A stretch of DNA of 64,000 nt, from the NCBI GenBank assembly GCA_903842345.1, contig CAIMLR010000007.1, positions 62,001 to 126,000 of the forward strand, written 5' to 3'. The notes under the pieces were generated by a model. The model was not told where the DNA came from. It saw only the letters and a program-made list of their open reading frames with translations, and did not search any database. Below, one piece after another: positions 3,628 to 29,595 of this stretch. Source of the stretch: an uncultured Myxococcales bacterium. Lineage in GTDB: Bacteria; Myxococcota_A; UBA9042. How positions within the stretch are numbered: the first letter of the stretch is position 1; every line of letters begins with the position of its first letter. The translations under genes were made by a program, and so were the position numbers.

Positions 3628-3969
3628 ATGCTGCGTCTGACTCTCGTGCTTACGGTGCTGGGCAACGTCGCGCTGGCGGCGCATTTCCTGCGGGAGGCCA
3701 ACTTTGCCCTGCTGCTTGTCTGCCTCGCGTGCACGGCGGCGCTGTGGACCCGCCGCAATTGGGCGATCCTGCTCAATCAACTCCTGCTCGTGGGCGGCGC
3801 GCTCGTCTGGCTGGGCACGGCTGGGCAGGTGCTGGACAAACGGATGGCGGAAGGCCGGCCGTACGTGCGGATGCTGGCCATCCTCGGCGCGGTTGCGGCG
3901 CTGGTGCTGACGACGGCCGCGCTGTGGGCGGTGCCGCGCGTGCGGCGGGCGTGGCTTACGCGGGCGTGA
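3628..3969 (+). CDS. Small four-helix membrane protein
   Basis: 113 residues. The ATG at 3628 is preceded by 'gtggaggctggtg', which contains a GGAGG ribosome binding site; the longer frame from 3577 begins with Cys/Pro-rich residues unlike a signal. Four hydrophobic stretches are visible (about 2-18, 24-41, 45-65 and 80-100), separated by short charged loops such as 'TRRNW' and 'DKRMAEGRPY'. No family recognised. The C-terminus ends in a basic tail. The last 14 bases overlap the end of the convergent radical SAM gene. Probably an inner-membrane protein of unknown function. Confidence 0.6.
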   Translation: MLRLTLVLTVLGNVALAAHFLREANFALLLVCLACTAALWTRRNWAILLNQLLLVGGALVWLGTAGQVLDKRMAEGRPYVRMLAILGAVAALVLTTAALWAVPRVRRAWLTRA

Positions 3970-5296
3970 GGGTGCGCAGGCCAAGCGTGCCGTAATGCTG
4001 CAAGTACAGCGACGAAACGCCCGCACACGAGCCGCGCAGGGCGCAGCCGTCGCAGACCGCTGGGTGACCCAAGCTCTCATCCATCTTGCTGGGTAGGGTA
4101 ACTTCCGGCTCGCCGCCCTCGACAACCACCGGCACGGCCTCAGCGCGCACCAGGTTCTTGTATTGCGTCGTCCCGACCGGCAAGCCGCGCAACACGCAGG
4201 GAGGCAGGTTCGCCAGTGAGATGACGCTGCGTCTGTCCAGAATCCGCGACCGCATCGGCGCCAGCGCGTCCGCCACCGCCGCGTAGTCGGGCACAAGTCC
4301 GGCAAAGTCGCGCGCCGCCTTGCCCTTGATCCACGGGTAGCACAGCACGATGAGCGACGACTGAAACGCGTCGAGCAGCGCGACGAGCGCCGGCAGGCTG
4401 GACAGATTTTGTTGGACCATCACGCTGTTGGTGCGAAAGAAGATGCCGCGCGCTTCCTGGGTCGCGCGATCGCCAAAGAGCCGCTGGACGTTCTCCAGCA
4501 CCTGCCGCTTCTTGGCGAACAGCCCTGGCCGCCCGGTAATGGCGTCCTCCACTTCAGCCGTCGCCGCATGGATGCTCAGGATCAACACCGTCAGGCCAGC
4601 GGCCTTGACCGCTTCCATGTAGCCGATGTCCGCGAGGCGCCCGCCATTGGAGATCAGGTGAATCTCGGCAAAACCGAGGCCACGGGCAATGCCGATCAAC
4701 TCGGGCAAGTCCGTCCGCAGCGTCGGCTCCAGGCCGGTCAGCGTCACGCCTTCAAAGCCAGCGGCGCGCACGCGCTCCAACTCGCGCGTCAGCGTCGCCA
4801 GCGGCGCTTTGGGCAGCGCCTCGGGCGTCAGGCGATCCGTGCAGAACTTGCAGTTGGCGTTGCAGACGTGGCCAATGCGCAGGTCGATCATCTTCTCGCG
4901 CGGCACCCGGCCGACCTTGCGCAGCAGCGGCGCTTGCCCCGAACGGAAACAGTCCTCGAGCGCGGCGTCTGAGACGCCTTCCGTCCGTTGCCGCAACAGC
5001 GCCGCGGTCTTCCGGACAAAAGCGACGACTTCCTGGCCCGCGTCGCCCTCGATGACGAGCGACAAGTCCATTCGGCCCGCCGTCGCGAGAAACCGCCGAC
5101 CTTCCCGCCGCGGCGTGATGCGGATGCTGAACGGACGGGCGGCGGCCAGATCCCGAAAATGCAGGTCAATAGAGCGATTGGCGACGATGGCTTCCAGCAC
5201 AAAGCGCGCGTCAAACGGCTGGCCCAGCGCCATCGGGGCGAGGTAGCGCAGAAAGTCGGTTGCGGCTTGTGACGTTTCGGCGCCCGGTTGCATCAT
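3956..5296 (-). CDS. Radical SAM protein with C-terminal Cys cluster
   Basis: About 446 residues, cytoplasmic. The radical SAM CxxxCxxC motif is CNANCKFC at residues 145-152, which binds the 4Fe-4S cluster that cleaves S-adenosylmethionine. It is followed by 'GVTLTGLEPTL' (the GGEPT-like strand, here with Leu) and 'LISNGG'. The first 140 residues form an extra N-terminal domain. At the C-terminus lies CxxCxLRxxCAG (Cys 415, 418, 424), a SPASM-like auxiliary cluster candidate. Two adjacent ATGs (5296 and 5293) are possible starts; an earlier in-frame start at 5344 is less likely. A nearly identical Cys motif recurs in the methyltransferase at 50791. The substrate is unknown. It overlaps the end of the small membrane protein by 14 bases. 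Confidence 0.8.
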   Translation of the reverse strand: MMQPGAETSQAATDFLRYLAPMALGQPFDARFVLEAIVANRSIDLHFRDLAAARPFSIRITPRREGRRFLATAGRMDLSLVIEGDAGQEVVAFVRKTAALLRQRTEGVSDAALEDCFRSGQAPLLRKVGRVPREKMIDLRIGHVCNANCKFCTDRLTPEALPKAPLATLTRELERVRAAGFEGVTLTGLEPTLRTDLPELIGIARGLGFAEIHLISNGGRLADIGYMEAVKAAGLTVLILSIHAATAEVEDAITGRPGLFAKKRQVLENVQRLFGDRATQEARGIFFRTNSVMVQQNLSSLPALVALLDAFQSSLIVLCYPWIKGKAARDFAGLVPDYAAVADALAPMRSRILDRRSVISLANLPPCVLRGLPVGTTQYKNLVRAEAVPVVVEGGEPEVTLPSKMDESLGHPAVCDGCALRGSCAGVSSLYLQHYGTLGLRTLTPA

Positions 5297-5424
5297 GGTT
5301 CCATTGCCCGGCGGCGCCAGGGCGCGCGCATGCGGGAGACGCACGGGATCATGGACCGACGCAGATCGCCCGTCAAGCGGCTTTTTGCCTTTATTCCCAA
5401 GACATTACACGCTGCAATCCGCAA

Positions 5425-6132
5425 TCACCCGTAGCGATCGTCCCGCCACGGGTAGGCCGTCATCGAATAGCCGCGCTGTTCCCAAAATCCGGGCGCATCG
5501 GCCGTCAGGATCTCGATGCGGCTCAGCCACTTCGCACCCTTCCACGCCCACAGCTGCGGCGTAATCATCCGCACCGGACCGCCGTGCTCGCGCGGCAGCG
5601 GCTTGCCCTCTACCTGCCACGTCACCAGCACGTCGTCCTTGAGGGCCTCGTCCAGGGTCACGTTTGTCGTGTAGCCGTCGTAGCCGTGGCACATCAGCGC
5701 GGCCGCCGACTCCTGCACTTCCGCGAGCGCCAGCAGCGTGGAAACCCGCACGCCCACGAACGTGAGGTCCATCTTGGACCACGTCGTCACACAGTGAAAA
5801 TCGCTCGTGTCGATGACGTGCGGCAGCTGCTGGAGCTGGTTCAGGTCCAGTTCCAGCGGTTTGTCGCACGCGCCGTCGATCCGCAGCCGCCACTGCGCCG
5901 CCGTCACCGTCGGATGGACGCCCATGTCCAGCACCGGCCACTTGCGCGCCGGCGTCTGCCCCGGCGGCACCTTGGGCATGCCGTGGCGATTTGGCGCGCC
6001 GGAGCCCATCGGCGCGTCATCGGCCAGGGACGGCGTTTGCGCCATGCGCGCGCGATGCCGCTCCAGCCGCTTCAGGCGCGCGGCAATCACGGCGGGATCA
6101 GCCAACAGTTCAGACGGCAGCTTCTCAGACAT
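5425..6132 (-). CDS. Sulfite-oxidase-like molybdopterin oxidoreductase
   Basis: 235 residues, from an ATG at 6132 with a GAAGGGAA ribosome binding site. The central part is the sulfite oxidase molybdopterin fold: 'WRLRIDGACDKPLELDLNQL', then 'DFHCVTTWSK' with Cys114 as the expected molybdenum ligand, 'GVRVSTLL', 'CHGYDGYTTN' and 'LPREHGGPVRMITPQLW'. It resembles the cytosolic or exported YedY/YuiH-type enzymes that lack the heme and dimerisation domains. No Tat or Sec signal is visible at the chosen start, so either it acts in the cytoplasm or the true start lies elsewhere. Divergent from the thioesterase gene, with 90 bases between them. The substrate is unknown. Confidence 0.82.
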   Translation of the reverse strand: MSEKLPSELLADPAVIAARLKRLERHRARMAQTPSLADDAPMGSGAPNRHGMPKVPPGQTPARKWPVLDMGVHPTVTAAQWRLRIDGACDKPLELDLNQLQQLPHVIDTSDFHCVTTWSKMDLTFVGVRVSTLLALAEVQESAAALMCHGYDGYTTNVTLDEALKDDVLVTWQVEGKPLPREHGGPVRMITPQLWAWKGAKWLSRIEILTADAPGFWEQRGYSMTAYPWRDDRYG

Positions 6133-21906: not shown

Positions 21907-23823
21907 CTACTGGCAGAGCTTCATGCTGCAGAGCAGGAGCGCCTTGGCCGCGGCTGTCGCAGCCGGGTCAGCGGCACACGCGGCCTCACACGCGGGATCC
22001 GCGGCGCACGCGCCCAGGCAAGTGCGTTGCGCCGGGCAGCCGTTGGTAATCTCACACGTCAAGGACGCCTGCAGGCAGAGCGCCGATTCGCATCCCGGTG
22101 CGCACGTCGCGTACTCGGGTGTCGCGGGCACGCATGCCTTGCCCGCCCAGCCGTTGCCGAGGCATTGCGCCGACCGGCACCACTGCACGTTCAACCACAA
22201 CTGCAAGCTCGTCGGGAAGCCGGGCAAGCCCGTGGGCAGCAGGCACGCCGCCTGACACGTCGCGTCCGTGCAGGCATTGGTGCACGTGAGCATCGTTCCG
22301 CAGCCGTCGTCGCCATCCACGCACGCGGTCATCGCGTCGCCGCAGACCTTGGTGGTGCAGGTGCCGATGCACGCGCTGTCCGTGACGTTGCACTGCCCGC
22401 CGCTGACTGGACAGTCCGCTGGGCACGTGCCGCTGGTTTCCGTCGCGCCGCAAATCGTATCGCCGCACGGGCTGCTCGGCTGGCAAATGCCGCCGGTGCA
22501 GCTCTTGCCGGTGCCGCAACCGACGCCGTTGCCCTTGATGGTCCAACTCGGTCCGGCCAGCGCGTCGCAGGCGTCCACGGTGCAGTCGTTGCCATCGTCG
22601 GTCGACACGTCCAGCGAGCCGCCGCACACGCCGCCTGAACACGCTTCCGAGTACGTGCACGCGTTCCCGTCGTTGCACTTGCCCGCGTTGTTCGTGTGCA
22701 GGCAGCCCTTTTTCGGATCGCACGCGTCGTCGGTGCACACGTTGCCGTCGTCACACGCCGTGGCGGGCGGCGTGCAGGTGCCGGCGTTGCACGTTCCGTT
22801 CGGCGCGCAGATGTCGCCGAGCTTGCACGTCGTCGCGGCGTTGGGCGTGTGCGTGCAGCCCGTCCCTGGTACGCAGGCATCGTCGGTGCATTCACTCTTG
22901 TCGTCGCAGACTTTGGGCTTGCCCGCGCATGCGCCGTTGGCTGGATCAATCGCGTTGCAGGCATCCTTCTCCGTGCACGGATCGCCGTCGTCGCACGCCG
23001 CGCCGTCGTAGGCCGCAGTTTGGCAGCCGCCGAGAAAATCGATGCACTTGCTGATGTTGCACGCGTTGCTGTCCGGCGGGCAGGTGACGGGCGTGCCCGT
23101 GCAGACGCCGCTGATGCATTTGTCGCCCGTCGTGCAGTGCGCGTCGCCGTCATCGCACACGGAATTTTCGACCTTGTTGGTCCAAGTGCAGCCCTTGCCG
23201 CTGGCGTCGCACGAGTCCGTTGTGCAGTCGTTCTTGTCATTGCAGACGACGGCGGTGCCTTTGCACGTCGTGTCGACGCAGACATCGCCGACGGTGCACG
23301 CGTTCGCGTCGTCGCAGCCGCACGGCTGGTCCTTTTTGGGGCCGCACGTCTTGGGCACCGGCACTGCTGCGGTCGAGCAGCCGATCGCCGGGTCACAGCT
23401 GTCCACCGTGCAGGGGTTGCCATCGTCGCAGCTCGCCGGCGTCTTGACGCACGCGCCCGCCTTGCAGAGCGCGCTCGCCGCGCACTTGTCGTCAACACCC
23501 ACGCACGGCGAATCGTCCGCCGCCGCCGTGGCCTTGCAAAAGCCGCTCACCGAATCGCACGTCGCCGTGTGGCACGCGTCGTTGTAGCCCGTGCAGTCCG
23601 CGTCGACTTTGCACCCCAACACCGGCACGTCGACCGCGGGCGTATCGCCGCCCGTGTCCTTGCCGTCCGCTTTGCCGTCGTCAGTCGCATCACCGGCCGC
23701 GCCGTCGTCCATCGCGGCATCGTCCACCGCGTCGTCGCCGACCGCAGCCGTCACGTCGCGCCGCGTCGGCAGGCAACCTGTCGCCAGCCCCATCAGCACC
23801 AGCCATGGCAAGATGTGCTTCAT
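21907..23823 (-). CDS. Cysteine-rich repeat lipoprotein (CDDGNxCT type)
   Basis: 638 residues. The start at 23823 gives a lipobox (GLATGC, Cys17). An Asp/Gly/Ala-rich linker follows (about 22-55), then about twelve repeats of the type CDDGNxCTxDxCDxxxGC (about 55-435), then a CGxTxCGxxE...CPxDC repeat, and a C-terminal part with Cys pairs ('CPAQRTCLGACAADPACEA'). Nearly all cysteines are spaced for disulfides, so it is a surface-exposed lipoprotein with a likely structural or adhesive role. The start overlaps the stop of the upstream paralogue (ATGA), and both share the 'DVPVLG' start of the first repeat, so the pair arose by tandem duplication. No catalytic motif. Confidence 0.75.
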   Translation of the reverse strand: MKHILPWLVLMGLATGCLPTRRDVTAAVGDDAVDDAAMDDGAAGDATDDGKADGKDTGGDTPAVDVPVLGCKVDADCTGYNDACHTATCDSVSGFCKATAAADDSPCVGVDDKCAASALCKAGACVKTPASCDDGNPCTVDSCDPAIGCSTAAVPVPKTCGPKKDQPCGCDDANACTVGDVCVDTTCKGTAVVCNDKNDCTTDSCDASGKGCTWTNKVENSVCDDGDAHCTTGDKCISGVCTGTPVTCPPDSNACNISKCIDFLGGCQTAAYDGAACDDGDPCTEKDACNAIDPANGACAGKPKVCDDKSECTDDACVPGTGCTHTPNAATTCKLGDICAPNGTCNAGTCTPPATACDDGNVCTDDACDPKKGCLHTNNAGKCNDGNACTYSEACSGGVCGGSLDVSTDDGNDCTVDACDALAGPSWTIKGNGVGCGTGKSCTGGICQPSSPCGDTICGATETSGTCPADCPVSGGQCNVTDSACIGTCTTKVCGDAMTACVDGDDGCGTMLTCTNACTDATCQAACLLPTGLPGFPTSLQLWLNVQWCRSAQCLGNGWAGKACVPATPEYATCAPGCESALCLQASLTCEITNGCPAQRTCLGACAADPACEAACAADPAATAAAKALLLCSMKLCQ

Positions 23824-25241
23824 TTGGCTTTGCAAATCCCTTGGCTGCAGGCCGAGCTGTTGCCGCAATCCGTGCCGTCCGTCGCCAGCGTGTGGGTGCA
23901 ACCCGCGACCGGATCGCACGCGTCGATGGTGCACGCGTTGGCGTCGTCGCAGTTCACGGGCTTGCCGCCGCACAGTCCGCCGGCGCAGGCGTCGCTGCTG
24001 GTGCAGCCGTTGCCGTCCGTGCACGTCTTGGTGTTGGGCGTGCCGACGCAACCGACGCCGGAAATGCAACTGTCATCCGTGCACGGGTTGCCGTCGTTGC
24101 ACGTGACGACCGTGGCGCTCTTGCACGTCGTCTTGCCGTCGCATTGGCCGTTCACGACGCACGGGTCGCTCGTCGTGCACGGCGTGCCGAGCTTGAGCGT
24201 CGTCTTGTTGTCGCACGTGCCGGTGTTCGCGTCGCATTTGTCCGTCGTGCACGGCTTGTTGTCGTCGCACTTGGACTTGGTCACGCACGTCGGCAGGGCG
24301 ACCGCGTCGGTGCCTGCGACCATCTGGCACGTGCCGGGATTGCACTTGTCCGTGCCGCATCCCACGCCGTCGCCGACGTAGATGTTGTCGCACGCGCCGG
24401 TCAGCCCGTTGGGGCCGTCGGTGGTGCACGGGTTCTTGTCGTCGCAGTCCTTGGGGACGCCGCAGCTGCCGTTGTTGCAGATCGGCGTGTCGGCGGGGTC
24501 GTTGCCGGTGCACGGAACGGACTTGGCCGTGTACGGAAAGCCCTGGTGCGTGCACAGGGACAGCACGCCAAGGGAGATGTCGCCCTTTTCGTTGCACGCG
24601 TCATTGGTGCAAGGTTCGCCGTCGTTGCAGTCCAACTGCGTGCCGACGCACTTCAACGTCGCCGGATCGCAATGGTCGCTCACGGTGCATTGCACGCCGT
24701 CGCTGCAACTGGCGTTGGCGAACGGATGGGAACAGACGCCATTGCCGCACAAATCGAGCGTGCAACCATTGTTGTCGCTGCAGTTCTTGGCCGTGCCGCC
24801 GACGCACGCGCCGCCCGCGTCGCAGGTTTGGCCGACGAGGCACGCGTCACTGTTGCACGGCGCGGCTTCGTCGAACTGCGGTGAATCGCACAAGCCCGTT
24901 TCCGCGTTGCACGTTGGCGTCGCGTGACACGGCAAGGTCGGCAGCGCCGCACAATCGCCCTTGGCCTTGCAGCCCAGCGCGACAGCGTCGCCGAGCACCG
25001 GCACGTCCTGCTCCGTTCCGGTCACATCATCCGCGGTGTCCAGGCTGCCATCCGCCGCGGCGCCGTCGCCCTTGGTGTCGGTCTTGGCGGCATCAGCCGC
25101 GACCGTGTCCACCTTGACGTCCGGCAGCGGATCGTTGGACCGCTCGCCCGGCAGGCAACCTGGCAACGTCAGCGCGACGCCAAACAGCAGCAGCAGCGCA
25201 ACCGGCATGTGGGCATCGAGCAACCGCTGGGCAACGCGCAT
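23820..25241 (-). CDS. Cysteine-rich repeat lipoprotein, paralogue
   Basis: 473 residues; the ATG at 25241 has a GGGAG ribosome binding site, and a downstream ATG (25208) would give a shorter signal with the same lipobox (TLPGC). An Asp/Thr/Ala-rich linker (about 30-75) precedes about twelve CxDxNxCTxDxC repeats that run to the end ('CDDANACTIDACDPVAGC' near the C-terminus). It is shorter than its neighbour and lacks the C-terminal modules. Translationally coupled to the downstream gene. Divergent from the ABC substrate-binding protein with about 156 bases between them. It is likely to be surface-exposed. I do not know its ligand. Confidence 0.75.
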   Translation of the reverse strand: MRVAQRLLDAHMPVALLLLFGVALTLPGCLPGERSNDPLPDVKVDTVAADAAKTDTKGDGAAADGSLDTADDVTGTEQDVPVLGDAVALGCKAKGDCAALPTLPCHATPTCNAETGLCDSPQFDEAAPCNSDACLVGQTCDAGGACVGGTAKNCSDNNGCTLDLCGNGVCSHPFANASCSDGVQCTVSDHCDPATLKCVGTQLDCNDGEPCTNDACNEKGDISLGVLSLCTHQGFPYTAKSVPCTGNDPADTPICNNGSCGVPKDCDDKNPCTTDGPNGLTGACDNIYVGDGVGCGTDKCNPGTCQMVAGTDAVALPTCVTKSKCDDNKPCTTDKCDANTGTCDNKTTLKLGTPCTTSDPCVVNGQCDGKTTCKSATVVTCNDGNPCTDDSCISGVGCVGTPNTKTCTDGNGCTSSDACAGGLCGGKPVNCDDANACTIDACDPVAGCTHTLATDGTDCGNSSACSQGICKAK

Positions 25242-25397
25242 GGAACTCCCAAACTGACCAAGATCATCCAAAGTCCGCCCCAGACGGACTTCTCGCTGCA
25301 GTTTAGCGGGTCGAACGCCGTGCGTCCATTGCCAAAGCCGCGGCAACAACCCAAGATCGCGGTTGCCGCGCCCGATGGCGCCCGTCGGCTGCCCCGC

Positions 25398-27089
25398 ATG
25401 CGTCAGGCTCCCCTGCTCCTGCTCTGCCTCCTGGCCCTGACGTTCCTCGCGCTGGCGTGCGGACGTGAGGCGGATCGCGGCGCGCAGTTGCTGGCGGAGC
25501 GCGTGCCGGCCGAGCGCCATCTGCTTTTTGCCTCAGGCGGAATGGAGTTTCTCGATCCGGCCAAGGTTGCGGAGACCGCCGGGCATCACCTGATGATGAA
25601 TGTGTTTGAAGGGCTGTACGTCTACAACCGCGGCGAAGGTCCGCCGGTGCCGTCGATGGCGACGCGCCACGAAGTGTCAGCGGATGGCAAAACGTGGACG
25701 GTGCACCTGCGGCCGGGCGTGACGTGGTCCGATGGCGTGCCGATCACGGCGCGGGATTTTGTCTGGAGTTGGCGGCGCGTGCTCGATCCGAGGACGGCGT
25801 CCCGCGCGGCGCAGCTGCTGTGGTTCCTCGACGGCGCGCAGGCGTACAACGAGGGCGCGGTCACCGATCCGGAGACCGTGGGCGTGCATGCGTCAGACGA
25901 CCAAACGCTGGTGATTCGGCTCAAGAATCCGACGCCGTTCTTTCTCGACCTGCTCTGCGAGATGCAATACGTGCCGACGCCGCGCCATGTTGTCGAAAAA
26001 TGGGGCGATGCCTGGAGCACGCCGGCGCACATCGTCTCCAACGGTCCGTTCCTGCTGGTCAAGCACGAGAACCGCGTGGTGTCCGAGCTGGTCAAGAATC
26101 CGCGCTACTGGGACGCGCAGGACGTGTGGTTGGACAAAATTACGGTGCTGCACACGGAGTCCGACCAGACCGCGTTTGACTGGTATGAAGTCGGCAAGAC
26201 CCAATGGCAGGGCGACACGTCCCTGCCGGTGGACCGCGCGCCGGGGCTGCGGGCGTCAGGGCGACCGGACTTCCACAGCGATCCCAAATTGTGCTCGTAC
26301 TACTTCAGCGTGCGGGTCGATCGGCCGCCGATGGACGACGTGCGCGTGCGCAAGGCCGTGAATCTGGCGATCGACAAGGAGAGGCTGGCCCTGCACATCC
26401 TGCGCGGCGGCCAGCCGGTGGCGAGCAATACGGTGCCGGATCTGTTCCGCGCCAGCCACGGCTACACGCCGCTTGTCGGCGACGGCTTTGATCCAGAGCG
26501 CGCGCGGCGGTTGTTGGCGGATGCGGGTCACGCCGGCGGTCAGGGTCTCGCGCCGCTTACGCTGTACTTCAACACGGGCGAGGGGCACCGGCTGATCGCG
26601 GAGTTTGTGCAGCGCAACCTCCAGGAGAACCTCGGCGTGCAGGTGCAGCTGGCCAACATGGAGTGGGGCTCGCTGCTCAAGACGCTGCTTGCCGGCGATT
26701 TTGCCATCGGACGGTCGTCCTGGTGCGCGGACTATCCGGATCCACTGACGTTTTTGGAAGTGTTCCACAGCCAGTCCAAGGCCAACTACTCGGGCTACAA
26801 GTCCGCCGAATACGACGGCGTGCTGGCCGCGATCCAGGCGGAAGCCGACATGCAGAAGCGCAATGCCCTGCTCCGACGTGCCGAAGAGATCCTGGATCGC
26901 GATATGCCCCTGACGCCGCTCTACCACTACACCTGGTCCTACCTGCTGCGGCCGTTCGTGCTGGGCTATGAGCGCCACGCGCAGGACATGCATCCGCTGA
27001 AGTACGTGCGCTGGGCCACGCCCGACGAGTGGACGCGCATCCAGCATGGCGCGGTCCTCCATCTGCCGCCGTTGCCGGGAGGCCAGTAG
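25398..27089 (+). CDS. Oligopeptide-type ABC substrate-binding lipoprotein
   Basis: 563 residues. Signal with lipobox LALAC (near residue 21), then an SBP_bac_5 (OppA/DppA family) protein: 'HHLMMNVFEGLYVYNRGEGP', 'WTVHLRPGVTWSDGVPITARD', 'DFVWSWRRVLDP', 'PFFLDLLCEMQYVPTPRHVV' and 'VRKAVNLAIDKERLALHIL'. It would capture a peptide or similar solute outside the inner membrane and deliver it to the permeases. The ATG at 25398 is the one that gives the signal. The next gene follows after 3 bases, so it heads the operon of permeases with unusual insertions. The ligand cannot be predicted. Confidence 0.92.
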   Translation: MRQAPLLLLCLLALTFLALACGREADRGAQLLAERVPAERHLLFASGGMEFLDPAKVAETAGHHLMMNVFEGLYVYNRGEGPPVPSMATRHEVSADGKTWTVHLRPGVTWSDGVPITARDFVWSWRRVLDPRTASRAAQLLWFLDGAQAYNEGAVTDPETVGVHASDDQTLVIRLKNPTPFFLDLLCEMQYVPTPRHVVEKWGDAWSTPAHIVSNGPFLLVKHENRVVSELVKNPRYWDAQDVWLDKITVLHTESDQTAFDWYEVGKTQWQGDTSLPVDRAPGLRASGRPDFHSDPKLCSYYFSVRVDRPPMDDVRVRKAVNLAIDKERLALHILRGGQPVASNTVPDLFRASHGYTPLVGDGFDPERARRLLADAGHAGGQGLAPLTLYFNTGEGHRLIAEFVQRNLQENLGVQVQLANMEWGSLLKTLLAGDFAIGRSSWCADYPDPLTFLEVFHSQSKANYSGYKSAEYDGVLAAIQAEADMQKRNALLRRAEEILDRDMPLTPLYHYTWSYLLRPFVLGYERHAQDMHPLKYVRWATPDEWTRIQHGAVLHLPPLPGGQ

Positions 27090-27092
27090 CTC

Positions 27093-28250
27093 ATGGCGCG
27101 TTTCCTGCTGCGGCGGCTGCTGGCTGGCTTTGTGACCCTGTGGGTTGTCGCGTCGCTGTCGTTTGGCCTCATGCGGCTGGCGCCGGGCGGGCCGTTCCAG
27201 CGCGACAAGCCGCTGGCGCCGGCCGTGGAAGCGAACCTGCGGCGGACGTTTGGCCTGGCGGCGGATGTGCCGAGCCCGGTCGCGGGAACGCTGGTGCGGT
27301 TTCTCGTCAAGCCGGGGCAGCACGTGCTGGAGCGCCAGCCAGTCGCGGAAATTCGCTTGCAGAACGGCCAGATGACACAGCCTTCGGCCGTCGCAGATCT
27401 CGAGGTCATCGCGCTCACGGGCACCCCAGGCCGCGTGCTGCGCGCCGGCGATCCCCTGCTCACGCGCGCGACGTCGGGCTGGGCGCAATACCGCCACGCC
27501 ATGTGGAGCTACGCGCATCTCGATTTTGGCGTGACCTATGCGTCCGAGGGCACGGAGACGGTCATGGCCACGTTGGCCAAGGCCTTTCCGGTGTCGCTGG
27601 AGCTCGGTTTTCTCGCGCTCCTGCTCGCGCTGCTGCTCGGCGTGTCGGCGGGCCTCGTCTCAGGCCTCTATCCCAACAGCCGCTTGGATCACGTGGCGAT
27701 GACGGGCGCGCTGCTGGCGGTTTCCATGTCGTCCATCGTCCTCGGACCGCTGCTCAAGCTGATCTTCTGCGTGCAACTGCGCTGGTTTGACGTCGGCGGT
27801 TGGCAGCCGCTCGCCCTCGATTGGCCGCACGTCCAAGTCAAGATCCTGCCCGTGCTCACGCTGGGCCTCATCTACGCCGCGTGGTTCGCGCGGCTGACGC
27901 GCGCCGGGATGCTGGAAGTCGTGCGCCAGGATTTCGTGCGGACCGCGCGCGCCAAGGGCCTGCCAGAACGCCTCGTCGTGCTGCGCCACGCTTTTCGCGC
28001 CGCAATCCTGCCGGTCGTCAGCTTCCTCGGTCCGGCGCTGGCGGGCATCGTCACGGGTTCGACGGTCATCGAGCAGGTGTTCCAGGTGCCCGGCGTCGGC
28101 GAGTTCTTCGTCACGTCGGCCGTCAACCGCGACTATCCGATGGTGATGGGCACGGTCGTGCTGTATTCGTCGCTGCTGATCCTCGCCAATCTGTTCGTCG
28201 ACCTGCTGCAAGCGGCGCTCGACCCGCGCGTGCGGGGGGACCATGGCTGA
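27093..28250 (+). CDS. OppB/DppB-type permease with lipoyl-like insertion
   Basis: 385 residues. The core is a binding-protein-dependent permease: TM1 at 9-29 ('FVTLWVVASLSFGLM'), the family order 'LELGFLALLLALLLGVSAG', and the EAA loop near 'RTARAKGLPERLVVLRHAFR'. In DppB-like proteins the first long helix is followed by 'LGLDxP' and then directly by 'WxxYLxxL...GDLG'. Here 'TFGLAAD' and 'WAQYRHAMWSYAHLDFG' are separated by about 70 extra residues (about 58-128), which read like a biotinyl/lipoyl or HlyD barrel-sandwich: 'SPVAGTLVRFLVKPGQHVLE' then 'RVLRAGDPLL'. No target Lys is at the hinge. Overlaps the next gene by 8 bases. Confidence 0.85.
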   Translation: MARFLLRRLLAGFVTLWVVASLSFGLMRLAPGGPFQRDKPLAPAVEANLRRTFGLAADVPSPVAGTLVRFLVKPGQHVLERQPVAEIRLQNGQMTQPSAVADLEVIALTGTPGRVLRAGDPLLTRATSGWAQYRHAMWSYAHLDFGVTYASEGTETVMATLAKAFPVSLELGFLALLLALLLGVSAGLVSGLYPNSRLDHVAMTGALLAVSMSSIVLGPLLKLIFCVQLRWFDVGGWQPLALDWPHVQVKILPVLTLGLIYAAWFARLTRAGMLEVVRQDFVRTARAKGLPERLVVLRHAFRAAILPVVSFLGPALAGIVTGSTVIEQVFQVPGVGEFFVTSAVNRDYPMVMGTVVLYSSLLILANLFVDLLQAALDPRVRGDHG

Positions 28251-29595
28251 CCGCAGCCCGACACGGGAAGCCTTCCTGCGTTTTCGCGCCAATCGCCGCG
28301 CGTGGTTCGGCGCGTGGTTCGTCGGCGCCGTCGGGGTGTGCGGTCTGCTGGCGCCGGTCATCAGCCAGCACGTCCTGCATTTCTCCGAGGATGAGCAGCA
28401 CACGTTTTGGGTGTTTGCGCCGCCGGGCACGCAGGACGTCGCCATCGACTATCCGACCTACGACGGCGACAAAGCCGCATTTGCGCGTCTGGATCTGGAC
28501 CGCGATGGCAAGCTGACCTGCGCGCGCACCGCGACGGGCGTGCATTGCCCCGAACTGGAGACCGCGTGGTGGGCGGAGCGCTTCTTCGCGTTCCTGCACG
28601 ACCTGAAGGACACCGCGCAGGGCCACGATCCGCCCGTGGCGGGCAAGCGCGCGCCGGACGGCCGGATCAGCCCGCAGGAATACCCGCAGCACCCCAGCGA
28701 TTGGCACGATCCGCGCGTCGCCGACGCCGTGCAGCGCCTTGGCCTGTTCGGTCCGCCGGGTTTTGCCCTGGTGGACGCCGATCACGACGGCTTTCTCAGC
28801 CGCCAGGAGGTCATCAGCCAGACGCGCTGGTCGCGCCTGCAGCAGAACCAACTCCTGCGCGATTTCGATGCGAACGGCGATCTGGCGATCGACCGCGGCG
28901 AATTTCCCGGCCAGCCGGAATTGCACACGCTGTGGCTCGGCACCGACCAGAAAGGCCGCGACTTGCTGGCGCGGCTGCTGTTTGGCGCGCGCGTGTCGCT
29001 GGCCATCGCGCTCCTGGCGACGCTCATCAGCGTGCTCATCGGCGTCAGCTATGGCGCGCTCTCCGGCTGGCTGGGCGGCCGCTGGGATGAGCTGATGATG
29101 CGCATCGTGGACGTGCTCTACGGCCTCCCGTTTCTCTTCCTTGTGATCCTGCTGCTCGTTGTCGCTGGCCGATCGACGGTCAATCTGTTCGTCGCGCTGG
29201 GCGCGGTGTCCTGGCTCTCCATGGCGCGCATCGTCCGCGGTCAGGTGCTGAGCTTGCGGCGGCGGCCGTTTGTGGAAGCGGCGGTGGCGATGGGCGTTGG
29301 GCAGGCGCGGATTCTGTGGCGCCACATTCTGCCCAACGCGCTGGGGCCGATTGTCGTCTACGCGACGCTTTCCGTGCCGGCGGTGATCATTGAAGAGGCT
29401 TTTCTGAGCTTCCTCGGGCTGGGCGTGCAGCCGCCCGCGGCGTCGTGGGGCACGCTGATTTCTGAAGGCGCGCGGCTGATGGCGCAGCATCCGTGGCTGA
29501 TCCTGTATCCGGGAACGCTGCTGACGTTGACGCTCTTTGCGCTGCACTTCGTCGGCGATGGCCTGCGGGATGCCGTCGATCCCCGAGGAGACTAG
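28243..29595 (+). CDS. OppC/DppC-type permease with EF-hand insertion
   Basis: 450 residues. TM1 is at about 21-42, and the family core starts at 'LWLGTDQKGRDLLARLLFGA' (about 230-249), followed by five membrane helices and the EAA loop ('AAVAMGVGQARILWRHILPN'). Between TM1 and the core lie about 180 residues that contain four EF-hand-like loops: DLDRDGKLTCAR (84-95), KRAPDGRISPQE (135-146), DADHDGFLSRQE (178-189) and DANGDLAIDRGE (209-220). The third is canonical, the fourth nearly so, the first two lack acidic ligands. By the positive-inside layout, this region lies outside the inner membrane. Calcium binding is inferred. There is no ATPase gene downstream. Confidence 0.87.
   Translation: MADRSPTREAFLRFRANRRAWFGAWFVGAVGVCGLLAPVISQHVLHFSEDEQHTFWVFAPPGTQDVAIDYPTYDGDKAAFARLDLDRDGKLTCARTATGVHCPELETAWWAERFFAFLHDLKDTAQGHDPPVAGKRAPDGRISPQEYPQHPSDWHDPRVADAVQRLGLFGPPGFALVDADHDGFLSRQEVISQTRWSRLQQNQLLRDFDANGDLAIDRGEFPGQPELHTLWLGTDQKGRDLLARLLFGARVSLAIALLATLISVLIGVSYGALSGWLGGRWDELMMRIVDVLYGLPFLFLVILLLVVAGRSTVNLFVALGAVSWLSMARIVRGQVLSLRRRPFVEAAVAMGVGQARILWRHILPNALGPIVVYATLSVPAVIIEEAFLSFLGLGVQPPAASWGTLISEGARLMAQHPWLILYPGTLLTLTLFALHFVGDGLRDAVDPRGD

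Follow-up and report, generated by a model that had tools for sequence, protein, structure and literature searches.

The window, by which is meant the whole 64,000-nucleotide stretch of DNA that was analysed, contains a three-gene operon, oppA, oppB and oppC, on the forward strand. The first gene (25398-27089) encodes an OppA-type substrate-binding protein (SBP_bac_5, E 5.9e-84) with a lipoprotein-like signal (LALAC), its start codon having been picked by eye within a longer open reading frame. It is followed by oppB (27093-28250), which encodes an OppB-type permease of 385 residues (BPD_transp_1, E 2.5e-37; E. coli OppB, 8z21_A, E 6.3e-71), and by oppC (28243-29595), which shares its first 8 bases with oppB and encodes an OppC-type permease of 450 residues (BPD_transp_1, E 6.9e-32; OppC_N, E 1.5e-7). 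Upstream of the operon, on the reverse strand (21907-25520), are two large open reading frames with repeated Cys-rich units of the form CDDGNPCTxDxCD. The operon's OppA is the only SBP_bac_5 match in the window's genome, and there is one OppB match and one OppC match. The sole OppD/F-type (oligo_HPY) ATPase pair of this genome (G000) is found on contig C27 (153974-155180), unlinked from oppABC. Among relatives, oppA, oppB and oppC are adjacent in L035-L040, and ATPase genes lie beside oppC: two in L042 and in L044, and one found in L040 (oppF-type). By gene content, with OppA, OppC and two ATPases all encoded alongside OppB, the system appears to be complete in the window's genome, although its genes are dispersed.

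Between LRRTFGL and WAQY the window's OppB is longer by about 70 residues. Positions 27264-27476 of the forward strand correspond to residues 58-128 of the 385-residue open reading frame, and the domain as delimited by Pfam, AlphaFold2 and fold search, with beta strands at residues 56-126, occupies 27258-27476. A sequence-only reading had reported these extra residues and recognized in them two half-motifs of a barrel; both are present in the translation, the first (SPVAGTLVRFLVKPGQHVLE, residues 61-80, 27273-27332, also placed by alignment) and the second (RVLRAGDPLL, residues 114-123, 27432-27461). E. coli OppB (8z21_A) aligns to residues 1-55 of the window's OppB and then to residues 132-381, leaving the stretch between unmatched. 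Measured from anchor to anchor, the gap is 73 residues in the window's OppB and between -1 and 6 residues in 69 of 70 loci from other phyla (L045-L114), the N-terminus of the remaining one (L070) being unreadable. The BPD_transp_1 core and the likeness to solved OppB, which extends to the predicted structure (8z21_A, Foldseek E 5.6e-16), identify the protein as an OppB-type permease, and apart from the insert it appears by sequence to be a normal oligopeptide importer subunit.

Several lines of evidence agree on the fold of the insert. The Biotin_lipoyl family (PF00364) matches the insert alone with E 4e-5 and 23.8 bits (cut-off 22.1), scores 19.2 bits within full-length OppB, below the cut-off, and at E 0.1 matches 12 of 19 insert-bearing rows. 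A profile of eight inserts searched against the PDB retrieved biotinyl domains first (E 5.5e-8), with lipoyl domains and MacA-type adaptors ranking after them. AlphaFold2, given eight sequences only as input, predicts the insert alone as all beta with a mean pLDDT of 92.3, and in the model of whole OppB (mean pLDDT 80.1) the strands at 56-126 lie between helices at 43-53 and 129-141; the segment is thus predicted to be neither disordered nor helical. In the predicted model two hammerhead halves, joined by a short QNG turn, form a flattened beta barrel. The 50 matches listed by Foldseek for the insert model all belong to biotinyl or lipoyl carriers, the great majority being biotin-dependent carboxylases or carrier domains thereof (TM-score 0.85 for a biotinyl domain), and VIA-align superposes the insert on 2d5d over 70 of 75 residues (Z 13.5, 1.4 A). 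The insert is therefore predicted to be a biotinyl-type barrel-sandwich-hybrid domain, as the sequence-only reading had proposed for the fold, and its closest solved folds among the matches listed are biotinyl (BCCP) domains rather than HlyD adaptors.

The proposed lipoyl/HlyD-like identity thus stands as regards fold class and falls as regards nearest relatives. It had been coupled to the suggestion that the domain extends toward an outer-membrane partner, and the lipoyl domains of HlyD adaptors do share the fold: the insert can be superposed on the adaptors EmrA and BesA as well (Z 11.5 and 11.6), and HlyD_3 (PF13437) gives weak matches, 20.7 bits for the insert, below its cut-off of 22.2. 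However, no helix is found within the insert in the AlphaFold2 model, which therefore lacks the helical hairpin of HlyD-type adaptors, and a single domain of about 70 residues is probably too short to span the periplasm. Membership among the HlyD/MFP adaptors was rejected on the sub-cut-off PF13437 score and the absent hairpin, and nothing was found in support of a reach toward an outer partner, which is accordingly very unlikely.

The closeness to biotinyl carriers among the matches listed would also be expected if the domain were itself biotinylated or lipoylated. Against this, a phmmer alignment with yeast acetyl-CoA carboxylase pairs Asn91 (27363-27365) with the MKM lysine that carries biotin, no MKM-like motif is found at the hinge in 19 aligned insert-bearing rows, and the loop that bears the insert presumably faces the periplasm, away from the ligases. 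The hinge Lys (MKM or DKA) of a functional biotin or lipoyl carrier is absent, as the sequence-only reading had noticed; carrier function was rejected for that reason and retains hardly any probability. Since the carrier Lys aligns with Asn91, the insert has a carrier fold without the cofactor site.

The taxonomic distribution of the insert is narrow. A profile of 19 stretches finds at least 22 full-length copies in at least 21 of 377 Myxococcota genomes, all with E 1.3e-38 or better; at most 10 first-look candidates were scored per genome, so that these counts are lower bounds. Twenty of the 21 insert-bearing genomes are among the 52 examined genomes of the window's class, and the remaining one (G334) belongs to another class. 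The next match is a fragment in G031 (4.8e-21), where the gene is split at the contig edge and was counted apart from the full copies; the listed matches from 4.5e-13 on each extend chiefly over the flank or chiefly over the domain. Among 80 named loci the insert is present in L035-L041, absent from L043 and L044, and cut at a contig edge in L042; the nearest relatives in this set are uncultured Myxococcales, and the search that produced it began from exact peptide patterns and is therefore biased to near relatives. In the 70 loci from other phyla (L045-L114) the insert is absent in all 69 readable cases. The segment is thus shared by the lineage as a folded domain and is not an ordinary loop, and it makes this importer a genuine variant, specific to the lineage, of a known transporter.

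Some individual members depart from the general pattern. L043 (Myxococcales RS415), whose OppB is barrel-free, has in its OppA (ORF 3967-5982) an insert of about 68 residues that by eye resembles a helix-hairpin-helix (ComEA-like) domain. L024 (G050) has an OppB with a shortened remnant of 22 residues instead of about 70. The f5 genome G049 contains two barrel-bearing OppB genes, L209 (contig C24) and L019 (contig C61), and the f5 barrels of L018, L020 and L021 contain two cysteines, located in SPC and in GC or PC stretches, that might form a pair and that are absent from the window's copy. In family f18 (L122-L129, L131, L132, L134-L136) an unrelated OppB insert of about 33-63 residues, of the type LDRPVFPVY...QYWE, is found at the barrel's site, and the OppC there is of the EF type too.

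The partner permease also carries an extra domain on its outer face, as had been claimed for both permeases. The OppC insert (28381-28920, forward strand) comprises about 180 residues between the first and second membrane helices and contains EF-hands (EF-hand_5, E 1.7e-8, in 2 stretches; EF-hand_1, E 2.7e-8), with the Pfam EF-hand pair at OppC residues 174-221. By pattern, at least one EF-like loop is present in all 21 barrel rows and at least two in 17, the other 4 being f5; the pattern is loose and gives single chance matches in many Bacillota OppC (e.g. L052), and the four f5 rows are therefore doubtful. When nine barrel-bearing OppC were searched with Pfam, five scored above a cut-off, two were weak and two gave nothing; among f5, L020 and L021 gave no EF-hand at E 0.01, and the matches in L018 and L019 all fell below the cut-off. 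Conversely, EF-type OppC is often paired with a barrel-free OppB (L022, L023, L116-L121 and others).

Phylogenies of the OppB core, excluding the insert, were built from 95 of 152 different cores in a first tree and 56 of 152 in a second, which omits the long-branch rows L025, L026 and L166; the N-terminus of L133 was unreadable. Rows with EF-hand OppC form one clade, with the exception of L052 (SH-aLRT 93 in the first tree, 98/90 in the second), and the barrel-bearing rows form one inner clade within this group (support 88 and 99/92, respectively). The OppC EF-hand insert is thus older and wider than the OppB barrel, which is nested inside that group, and co-occurrence is therefore one-way. 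The expectation that the two inserts always occur together does not hold, and obligate co-occurrence was rejected, the OppC insert being wider and the EF-hands of f5 fading while the barrel stays. These findings also bear on the idea that the barrel packs on the EF-hand domain of OppC as a calcium-dependent cap over the translocator. The barrel is found only inside the clade with the EF-hand type of OppC insert, and both inserts are located in TM1-TM2 loops on the same face; however, EF-hands are common without the barrel, and f5 keeps the barrel while its EF-hands are reduced, which makes such a cap improbable.

An AU test on the second tree does not reject strict monophyly of all rows with a full, shortened or partial barrel (p 0.284). 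The simplest history is a single gain of the barrel, with later loss in L022 and L026, both of which sit on long branches, and shortening in L024. More specifically, a biotinyl-type domain may have been grafted once into OppB in the ancestor of one Myxococcota lineage, at a site that would lie in the periplasmic TM1-TM2 region, between the second scoop helix and alpha3, the helix before TM2.

The scoop offers a context for the barrel. On the prevailing view, type I importers make contact with their binding protein by way of short loops, of which the scoop is one. In E. coli DppABCDF, according to PMC12136057, the periplasmic scoop of DppB is a helix-loop-helix located between TM1 and alpha3. 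It inserts into the DppA cleft, where Glu41 and Arg42 of DppB pair with the DppA residues that hold the dipeptide; its deletion is reported to impair growth and to lower ATPase activity to about a quarter. By alignment with DppB, the corresponding region of the window's OppB is residues 31-54 (27183-27254), in which the acid/base pair Asp38-Lys39 (27204-27209) aligns with Glu41-Arg42. The scoop acid is kept in 18 of 19 insert-bearing rows, as is the K/R in 18 of 19, and in the AlphaFold2 model the insert directly adjoins the C-terminal end of the second scoop helix. Because the pair matches that of DppB, the charges are kept and the barrel comes right after the second scoop helix, the barrel would be expected to lie beside docked OppA, next to the loop by which the scoop reaches into the cleft of this lipoprotein. 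Its role may therefore be mechanical: it may serve as a rigid platform on which a lobe of OppA docks or is steadied, and may also contribute to sealing the outward-open cavity, across from the OppC EF-hand domain. This docking or sealing platform is the tentatively favored explanation, with a probability somewhat short of even.

Rates of change within the insert bear on this reading. In all 10 within-genus pairs the insert has a dN/dS of 0.27-0.69, and the core 0.06-0.12; the nonsynonymous rate of the insert (dN 0.19-0.43) is about 3 to 8.5 times that of the core (0.04-0.09). The insert is under purifying selection but is less constrained than the core. This selection speaks for the platform, as do the persistence of the domain at low identity, the clade of single origin and the gene content of a working importer. 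Counting against a docking platform are the fast change of the insert and the finding of no invariant surface residue across 19 aligned rows, unlike what a tight and conserved interface would show. Given the fast change, any interface with OppA is more likely to be loose than tight. Also counting against docking, no extra domain matching the barrel was seen in OppA when 5 barrel-bearing rows were compared with 2 barrel-free rows of the EF clade. Some relatives can also dispense with the barrel: L022, L026 and L024 lack it or have a shortened form.

Another possibility is a tolerated graft, a domain that folds by itself and persists as a neutral or slightly beneficial spacer without any dedicated partner. 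The rapid evolution of the insert compared with the core fits such a history, as do the losses and the shortened form among relatives, and the unrelated f18 inserts (33-63 residues) appear at the same place as if the site accepts insertions. Yet dN/dS remains below 1 in 10 of 10 pairs, and the domain persists to about 23-26% identity across several families; a spacer of this kind is thus rather unlikely, though it deserves consideration.

The docking platform could be extended to both inserts, the OppB barrel and the OppC EF-hand domain together forming a collar round docked OppA, with release or sealing dependent on calcium. This is a doubtful proposition, but if true it would mean that a cytoplasmic biotin-carrier domain had been turned into part of a periplasmic gate, and that a type I importer had become regulated through a built-in docking ring. 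Whatever its role, the insert is a folded domain from a metabolic carrier family, situated right behind the scoop in the one such system that the window's genome encodes. It represents a reuse of the biotinyl fold, probably outside the cytoplasm, without a cofactor, and a natural experiment on how a permease holds its binding protein. Among titles and abstract openings in open-licence PubMed Central, no papers on a biotinyl or lipoyl domain or on EF-hands in an Opp permease were found.

With E. coli OppBCDF (OppB, 8z21) and DppABCDF (8z1v-8z1z) the window's OppB has in common the permease core, the cytoplasmic coupling region, the scoop with its acid/base pair, and the operon partners OppA and OppC; in E. 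coli OppB and DppB, however, the second scoop helix leads to alpha3 with no domain in between. Similarly, E. coli OppC is without the EF-hand insert, and the family profile matches the window's OppC only from residue 229 on. The biotinyl (BCCP) domains of Pyrococcus horikoshi (2d5d/2ejf) and yeast acetyl-CoA carboxylase (5csa) share the predicted fold over nearly the whole insert and are similar in sequence; the insert differs from them in that an NG turn replaces MKM and the carrier Lys, and in that it is built into a membrane protein, on what is probably the periplasmic side. The lipoyl domains of the HlyD/MFP adaptors (EmrA, 4tko; BesA, 4kku) resemble it in fold class, in being extracytoplasmic and in being part of a membrane transporter, whereas the insert has neither the helical hairpin nor the further adaptor domains and is located within an importer subunit.
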